The notes under the pieces were generated by a model. That model did not search any database and was not told the DNA's origin. It was given only the letters and a program-made list of their open reading frames with translations. From Myxococcales bacterium (GTDB lineage Bacteria; Myxococcota_A; Bradymonadia; Bradymonadales; Bradymonadaceae), in the NCBI GenBank assembly GCA_007119175.1, contig SKQC01000055.1, forward strand, positions 1-47,278: a DNA stretch of 47,278 nucleotides, given 5' to 3'. Positions 21,546 through 47,278 of the stretch are shown here, in pieces. A program made the translations under genes and the position numbers. Position 1 is the stretch's first letter. Every line of letters starts with the position of its first letter.

Positions 21546-21640
21546 GTAAGCATTCAGTTCGGTGACGAAGTCATGCGCCAATAGGGTTCGGCCTGGCAGC
21601 CCGAAAGGCGGCCAGGCTGGCCGCGGGCCCCGAATGCTTT
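21546..21640 (+). repeat. Structured dispersed repeat, copy 1
   Basis: About 95 bp bounded by short inverted ends (AAGCATTC and GAATGCTT). Inside are a nearly invariant block (GGTGACGAAGTCATGCGCC, then AATA), an inverted repeat TTCGG...CCGAA, and a near-perfect palindrome GCGGCCAGGCTGGCCGC. The same arrangement occurs in reverse orientation at 46376-46485. It lies in the 272-bp gap (21406-21677) between two divergent genes. No clear target duplication is visible for this copy. No other gene is seen in the gap. Confidence 0.75.
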
Positions 21641-21677
21641 CCTTATTTTAAGTTTATTCTGAACTTGAGTGTAATTC

Positions 21678-46062: not shown

Positions 46063-46275
46063 ATGTCGCAACGCTTTGTTGGTTCCGTCAAATGGTTTAG
46101 TGAGCAAAAGGGATACGGCTTCATCAGTCAACCCGATGGGGAAGACGTATTCTGTCACTTCAGCGCAATTCAGATGCCGGGATATAAGACCCTGCAAGAA
46201 GATCAGCGGGTCGAATTCGAGGTCGAAGAAGGGCCCAAAGGTCTTCAAGCGGTCAACGTCATTCCCATCGATTGA
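46063..46275 (+). CDS. Cold-shock protein (CspA family)
   Basis: 70 residues forming a single cold-shock OB fold. RNP1 is KGYGFI and RNP2 is DVFCHFSAI, where the usual VFVHFSAI has a Cys substitution. The N-terminal [11 protein letters not shown] is typical. It binds single-stranded RNA or DNA and melts secondary structure in the cytosol. GAGGAG lies about 10 bases before the ATG. A terminator follows the gene. The long leader upstream suggests post-transcriptional control, as in E. coli cspA. It is monocistronic. Confidence 0.95.
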
Positions 46276-46318
46276 CACCGGGACGCAGAATTTCTCCGGT
46301 ATCGATCGCGCCGATTCA

Positions 46319-46347
46319 GTCGGGTCCCCAGGCCCGGCTGTTTTTTT
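46319..46347 (+). terminator. Rho-independent terminator of the cold-shock gene
   Basis: CGGGTCC...GGCCCG pairs with a small loop and one wobble, followed by GCTG and seven T residues. It lies about 45 bases after the stop at 46275. Confidence 0.75.
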
Positions 46348-46375
46348 ATGTATCCACCATCGACGCCTGTTAATA

Positions 46376-46485
46376 TAAGCGTTCGGCCCCTGGGGCACGC
46401 GGCCAGCCTGGCCGCCTCTCGGGCTACTGCCCCGAACCTCAGGGGCGTATTGGCGCATAATTTCGTCACCCAACTGAACGCCTAC
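46376..46485 (-). repeat. Structured dispersed repeat, copy 2, with 9-bp flanking direct repeats
   Basis: About 110 bp, the reverse-oriented relative of the copy at 21546-21640. Its ends are short inverted repeats (TAAGCGTTC and GAACGCCTAC). The same 9 bases, CTGTTAATA, flank it at 46367-46375 and 46486-46494, as expected for a target-site duplication. Inside are the conserved TTCGTCACC block (minus strand GGTGACGAA), a CAGGGGC/GCCCCTG pair, and the palindrome GCGGCCAGCCTGGCCGC. The right duplication covers the stop codon of the CAP-domain gene without changing it. Confidence 0.8.
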
Positions 46486-46488
46486 CTG

Positions 46489-47181
46489 TTAATACCCGCC
46501 GGCAAATAAGGTCGTCATCACGTAGCCGCGCGAGGTCTCGATGACGCCGAAGCCCACATATGAAACCTCCTCGCGCAACACATTGCGGCGATGGCCGTCA
46601 GACTCCATCCACGCCGTATGAGCGAGGGCCATTGTCGGCGACATGGCAATATTTTCCGCCGACGCTTTCCACTGCACGCCCCGCTCGGCAAGTCGGTCGC
46701 CGGGCTCCATTCCCTCCGGAGTGACGTGGCTGAAATAATCGCGCTCGCGCATATCAAGACTGTGCTCTCGCCCCGCCCACACCAGTCGCAAATCACAGCT
46801 CAAAGGCTCCATGTCGCGGGCCTCACGCTCGCAATTGGCAAGCCGGAATAAAAGCGTCTCATAATCGTCGCCGCAGCGCCCCTGACGGTCCGGCTGCGCC
46901 TGCTCCCATCGGTCGTCGGGCACCGCATCTTCATGGGCATCTCTAATATCACCGTGTTCGACGTCGTCGAGACCGCACAATACATTGGGCTCGGCAGTTG
47001 CCGAGTCCCAGTCGCCACGAGTGGCCGGGCCACCGATCCCGCCTTCGACGACCACATGGCGAATCTGTACGTCGGAATCAGTCTCCAGAGTTTCAGCGTC
47101 GCTGCCGGTGGCACAACTCACCAAGCAGGCCGCAAATACAACGACTACGACCACATTTCCGCCATCTTTTAATTGCCTCAT
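46489..47181 (-). CDS. CAP/SCP-domain lipoprotein
   Basis: 230 residues from the ATG at 47181. Lipobox LVSC gives a lipidated cysteine at residue 23. A 75-residue acidic linker leads to a CAP domain (about 105-230) like those of SCP/PR-1 and bacterial YkwD: LLFRLANCEREARDMEPL, AGREHSLDMRERDYFSHVTPEG, GVQWKASAENIAM, AHTAWMESDGHRRNVL, and GFGVIETSRGYVMTTLF. The two His (in REHS and DGHR) and the Glu of AENIA that form the CAP cavity are present. It probably acts on the envelope or outside; the target is unknown. The upstream open frame of 23 codons lacks a ribosome-binding site. Confidence 0.85.
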   Translation of the reverse strand: MRQLKDGGNVVVVVVFAACLVSCATGSDAETLETDSDVQIRHVVVEGGIGGPATRGDWDSATAEPNVLCGLDDVEHGDIRDAHEDAVPDDRWEQAQPDRQGRCGDDYETLLFRLANCEREARDMEPLSCDLRLVWAGREHSLDMRERDYFSHVTPEGMEPGDRLAERGVQWKASAENIAMSPTMALAHTAWMESDGHRRNVLREEVSYVGFGVIETSRGYVMTTLFAGGY

Positions 47182-47278
47182 CGTCGTCACCGCCAGGCTA
47201 TCGACATACACCTCATTATTGACAAACGGCGGCGAACCACCGCGCCACACAGAATAACAACCTGTGCGCGCAGGACGA

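Follow-up and report, generated by a model that had tools for sequence, protein, structure and literature searches.

The window, a 47,278-nt stretch of contig SKQC01000055.1 from a Bradymonadaceae genome (GCA_007119175.1), contains two related repeats. Two 'Myxococcales' MAGs with the label CSSed, used for soda-lake sediment samples, have DnaK proteins with 89% and 83% identity to that of this organism, which is probably a soda-lake-type relative of the myxobacteria. One repeat (copy 1) is flanked by a pair of divergent genes; the other (copy 2) is located between a cold-shock-protein-like gene (csp) and a CAP-domain gene that converges on it (Table 1). Direct reading of the two repeats bore out the first-pass annotation in that they stand in opposite orientation and have in common a block, GGTGACGAA..ATGCGCCAATA, as well as inverted ends and hairpins. 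We observed that both belong to a single family of non-coding elements of ~111 bp, which hold no gene and are too small to accommodate that of a transposase. The termini of complete copies are variants of GTAAGCGTTCAG...CTGAACGCTTAC, with terminal inverted repeats of 12 bp, and the element folds into two hairpins together with an end stem and an outer stem.

Table 1 Features of the two repeats and of the copy 2 insertion site (window coordinates)
Feature	Position	Strand	Basis
Copy 1, internally deleted MITE between two divergent genes	21546..21641	+	Covariance-model match, 93.8 bits, model 1-111; pattern match
Cold-shock-protein-like gene (csp), left neighbour of copy 2	46063..46275	+	Translation
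csp terminator	46317-46340		Terminator scan
8-bp target-site duplication CTGTTAAT, left	46367..46374	.	Direct sequence
Copy 2, complete 111-bp MITE, subfamily A	46375..46485	-	Covariance-model match, model 1-111, 120.6 bits
Terminal inverted repeat, element right end CCGAACGCTTAT (family consensus CTGAACGCTTAC)	46375..46386	-	Alignment
Outer stem half GCCCCTG (+ strand)	46386..46392	.	Sequence and fold
Core hairpin 2, near-invariant palindrome GCGGCCAGCCTGGCCGC	46399..46415	.	Helix 5, 98% of cells paired
Core hairpin 1, CGGGCTACTGCCCCG (+ strand)	46420..46434	.	Helix 4, 94% of cells paired
Outer stem half CAGGGGC (+ strand)	46440..46446	.	Sequence and fold
Conserved unpaired left block GGTGACGAAATTATGCGCCAATA	46448..46470	-	Pattern match
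Terminal inverted repeat, element left end GTAGGCGTTCAG (family consensus GTAAGCGTTCAG)	46474..46485	-	Alignment; consensus identical to G011 IS66 ends
8-bp target-site duplication CTGTTAAT, right	46486..46493	.	Direct sequence; overlaps CAP gene TAA stop (46489-46491)
CAP-domain gene to the right of copy 2, convergent with csp, CDS intact	46489..47250	-	Pfam CAP E=4.9e-12; translation

On the minus strand, copy 2 reads GTAGGCGTTCAGTTGGGTGACGAAATTATGCGCCAATACGCCCCTGAGG...GGGGCCGAACGCTTAT, with ATTAACAG on either side (the plus-strand CTGTTAAT). The element had been placed at 46376-46485; it is there, but its boundary lies at 46375. The additional GCCCCTG/CAGGGGC pair ascribed to copy 2 is present, and copy 1 is without this outer stem. 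Copy 1 is a deletion derivative in which both halves of this stem, a regular feature of family members, are missing; it was correctly recognized as an element, but ends at 21641 and not at 21640. The flanks of copy 1 show no clear target duplication.

The neighborhood of copy 2 can be compared with that of its relatives. The csp-CAP gap measures 213 bp here versus 110-114 bp in two genomes of the same genus (G001 and G003), where the element is absent. An empty orthologous site is thus present in two genomes, with an exact junction that is not alignable base by base. The stop codon of the CAP gene falls within the duplicated 8 bp, and the coding sequence is therefore unharmed. A terminator scan near copy 2 returned a single terminator-like site, that of csp, which is outside the element.

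Next to these two copies, the family is large. A covariance model built from 56 copies was used to search the organism's own genome (G000; 5.37 Mb, 494 contigs, 86% complete) and its relatives. This resulted in at least 148 matches in G000, some of them partial copies, 47 and 30 matches in two genomes of the same genus, 1 and 0 in two others, and none in 21 further genomes of the order. A DNA search of G000 with copy 2 as query gave 54 matches, with other copies at 92% identity. GTAAGCGTTCAG occurs 78 times in G000, the pattern GGTGACGAAN{2,4}ATGCGCCAATA at 19 places and the pattern comprising both ends at 18 places on the plus strand, each with 0 occurrences in the reversed control. An exact scan of the conserved block in GTDB r220 and a scan of viral contigs for the element ends gave no matches, and plasmid records held only core fragments of 21-25 bp. 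Most copies are intergenic, and 39 copies examined by simple, rough ORF calling showed no preferred gene orientation, divergent gaps included.

The search with both element ends also brought up a second subfamily, B (GTAAGCGTTCAGTGGGGTGACGAAGTCATGCGCCAAAGCGCCC...; for example L138:1501-1613 and L149:1083-1194 in G000), which is younger and more uniform than subfamily A of the window and includes three copies of identical sequence at separate sites. Several variants in size were seen, namely L213 (72 bp), L197 (236 bp) and L205 (94 bp), each with its own exact or near-exact 8-bp duplication, which suggests transposition or rearrangement after insertion. In a related genome (G004), we observed two tandem versions of 92-93 bp with a common 8-bp duplication sequence between them (G004:C294:3053-3246), and a copy in which the two-hairpin core and the left block no longer have the usual relative orientation, the core being inverted as though it had turned round inside the element (L281:1501-1624, G004:C422).

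Target duplications were counted with element boundaries set by ends of the GTAAGCGTTCAG/CTGAACGCTTAC type. An exact 8-bp duplication flanks 22 of the first 50 copies, versus a mean of 0.43 expected when flanks are re-paired at random. In a larger set of 63 near-complete copies, the 8-bp duplication is exact in 23 and has at most one mismatch in 34, while exact 9-bp duplications were found in none. The 9-bp duplication initially reported for copy 2 is therefore one of 8 bp; the ninth base was included because the last base of the element itself matches by chance. Three identical copies of 112 bp occupy three sites with three different duplications (ATCTTGAC, TATCGAGA and ATTGAGTT), and these elements have therefore moved recently.

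We considered whether the family could instead be a palindromic repeat of the REP/BIME type, moved by a RAYT (Y1) transposase. Like REPs and BIMEs, the elements are extragenic, GC-rich and palindromic, their cores have expanded into short tandem arrays, and copy 2 even starts with GTAG. However, the consensus end is GTAA, the unit of 111 bp is larger and has matched inverted transposon ends, and 8-bp duplications accompany a third to half of the copies. REPs, by the account in PMC3733652, are palindromes of 20-40 bp. We regard a REP/BIME origin as the least credible of the explanations weighed here. The tandem arrays consist of the hairpin core alone, without transposon ends, and often lie at contig ends (G000:C102, C185, C494, C15, C492 and C304; for example L021, L118 and L030).

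Taken together, the many dispersed copies, the 8-bp duplications, the identical copies at other sites, the empty orthologous site and the ends shared with IS66 elements (see below) strongly support a non-autonomous transposon, the first of the two explanations that the first-pass annotation had offered. The second was an unrecognized structured RNA that transposition had distributed; the form of it weighed here is a non-coding RNA, either regulatory or akin to a ribozyme, whose fold is under selection. The stems, which differ in sequence between copies yet stay paired, had been taken to suggest selection on folding. One pair in copy 1 is indeed compensated (G-C to A-T), but there is no compensation for the second difference (AAG versus AGG, giving G.T), and a further copy (L005) has the same left-side change as the compensated pair without compensation. 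Across the 56 copies, we counted 3 two-sided pair changes where shuffles gave 3.7; the score for covariation was 0.061, versus 0.062 in shuffles. The right ends of copy 1 and of two other deleted copies are misplaced in this alignment, with no material effect on the covariation result. Selection on the fold within G000 is therefore not supported by covariation. The covariance-model search did recover the many copies that had been anticipated in G000 and its relatives, but neither stem covariation above chance (56 copies) nor exact 9-bp duplications (63 copies) came with them.

The hairpins themselves are strong, with fold z-scores of -2.6 to -5.3 for copies in G000 and -14.9 for one copy in G004, and a paired core turns up again, in altered sequence, in sister genomes as well as in a further genus; both points favor a structured RNA. 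In G004 the core reads GGAGC-GCGGACTGCCAGTCCGC-ATT-GCGGCCAGGCTGGCCGC-GCTCC, one copy being within a nearly perfect long palindrome; the G003 core follows this plan too, with G-C substituted for A-T in hairpin 1. The finished genome G011, from the same family, realizes the plan by unrelated hairpins (GGAGCCAGACCT..AGGTCTGG..CCAGGTCA..TGACCTGGCTCC) that adjoin the same end sequence, and one instance (L229) has an 8-bp duplication with one mismatch. On the other hand, palindromes in mobile DNA fold regardless of function and template switching can homogenize their arms, the elements match no described RNA family in Rfam, and they are found in every gene orientation and in divergent gaps. Together with the absence of covariation above chance, this makes a structured RNA very unlikely. 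The core may recur because the elements descend from a common ancestor and had their sequence replaced, because palindromes were captured repeatedly, or because folding is under selection.

A more far-reaching version is that the elements form an IS66-mobilized class, spanning at least two genera, in which the ends are constant and a two-hairpin (three-way-junction) core is repeatedly swapped for unrelated sequence of the same topology, implying that a folded core is needed for transposition or for tolerance by the host. We consider this improbable, if less so than a structured RNA. In G011, the different two-hairpin repeat beside the same IS66-type end is present in many copies, and tandem arrays of it have periods of ~99 and ~124 bp (L216:594-700 and L229; G011:C1 2325427-2326688 and 861318-862878).

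The transposon ends point to a likely source of the transposase. G011 contains elements of 1580 bp that are bounded by GTAAGCGTTCAG and each encode one IS66 transposase of 494 aa (NF033517 match, 246 bits). The exact 12-mer GTAAGCGTTCAG is found 11 times in this genome, each time at an IS66 element or at a small one that shares its ends, including an element of 122 bp with an 8-bp duplication, and the first 16 bp of subfamily B, GTAAGCGTTCAGTGGG, are the same in two of the G011 IS66 ends. A genome from the same order (G023) has a complete IS66 element that is flanked by an exact 8-bp duplication and whose two ends are GTAAGCGTTCAG and GTAACCGTTCAC (L098). The identity with IS66 ends thus extends over 12-16 bp in G011 and 12 bp at one end in G023 and is weak beyond 16 bp, and none of the IS66 interiors examined is the source of the two-hairpin core. 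In published single-ORF IS66 elements (ISBst12 group), the ends are likewise of the GTAA type and the direct repeat is 8 bp long (PMC12898284), and an 8-bp duplication is tabulated for IS66 elements (PMC3281130).

The first-pass annotation had also looked to an insertion sequence with matching ends; IS66 elements in G011 and G023 provide this, but none was found in G000, where searches with PF03050, a G011 protein and NF033517 yielded no IS66 transposase. One weak match, on contig C304 of G000, was rejected as it reads as a GrpE-like protein. Repeats are often lost from draft assemblies. G000 is 86% complete and in 494 contigs, so the organism may nevertheless encode the transposase; as no such gene was found there, the mobilizing enzyme is inferred, and the shared ends suggest that it is an IS66 transposase. 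MITEs usually have their partner transposase in the same genome, but this is not strictly defining and the partner is often lost. The autonomous source may similarly have been lost, have escaped assembly or have been present only transiently in the lineage.

The missing IS66 gene would also fit a MITE that is moved by a DDE transposase from another family, which likewise makes 8-bp duplications, and whose ends resemble those of IS66 by convergence. Convergence would then have to account for ends that are identical over 12-16 bp to those of IS66 elements from two further genomes in the order, and for a 12-mer in G011 whose 11 exact occurrences are all at IS66 elements or small elements with the same ends. 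We therefore give this explanation little weight, about as little as a structured RNA.

In conclusion, we interpret the feature as a non-coding MITE of ~111 bp that is probably mobilized in trans by an IS66 (ISBst12-like) transposase, with a probability of roughly 87%. An autonomous element would supply the single-ORF, ISBst12-like DDE transposase of the IS66 family in trans; this enzyme would bind the ends common to the MITE and the autonomous element and move the MITE. Insertion duplicates 8 bp of the target. The inner two-hairpin core would most simply be inherited baggage, perhaps favored for being compact and harmless to flanking genes.

Compared to known systems, the family is closest to IS66 elements of the ISBst12 group (single-ORF, e.g. 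ISDge4), with which it shares GTAA-type terminal repeats, the 8-bp duplication and GTAAGCGTTCAG ends identical to those that bound complete elements within the same taxonomic family and order. Unlike these elements of ~1.5 kb, it measures 111 bp, has no transposase gene and has an unrelated interior. MITEPsy1 of Pseudomonas syringae is a 100-nt element with a 4-bp duplication that is linked to ISPsy2 (tabulated as 'IS5?'; PMC3189936). It too is short and non-coding, with inverted ends, a target duplication and ends in common with the insertion sequence thought to supply its transposase, whereas the present MITE is linked to IS66, duplicates 8 bp and has a much higher copy number. Our literature search found no MITEs linked to IS66. 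The elements form a new MITE family linked to IS66, which makes them genomic parasites of a familiar sort and not a new RNA.

To our knowledge, the mechanism of transposition in the IS66 family is poorly characterized. If the hairpin core proves necessary, the family would allow the part that DNA folding plays in IS66 transposition to be tested. A MITE family at ~150 copies or more in one genome would also explain many of the assembly breaks and spurious GC-rich repeats in drafts such as this one.
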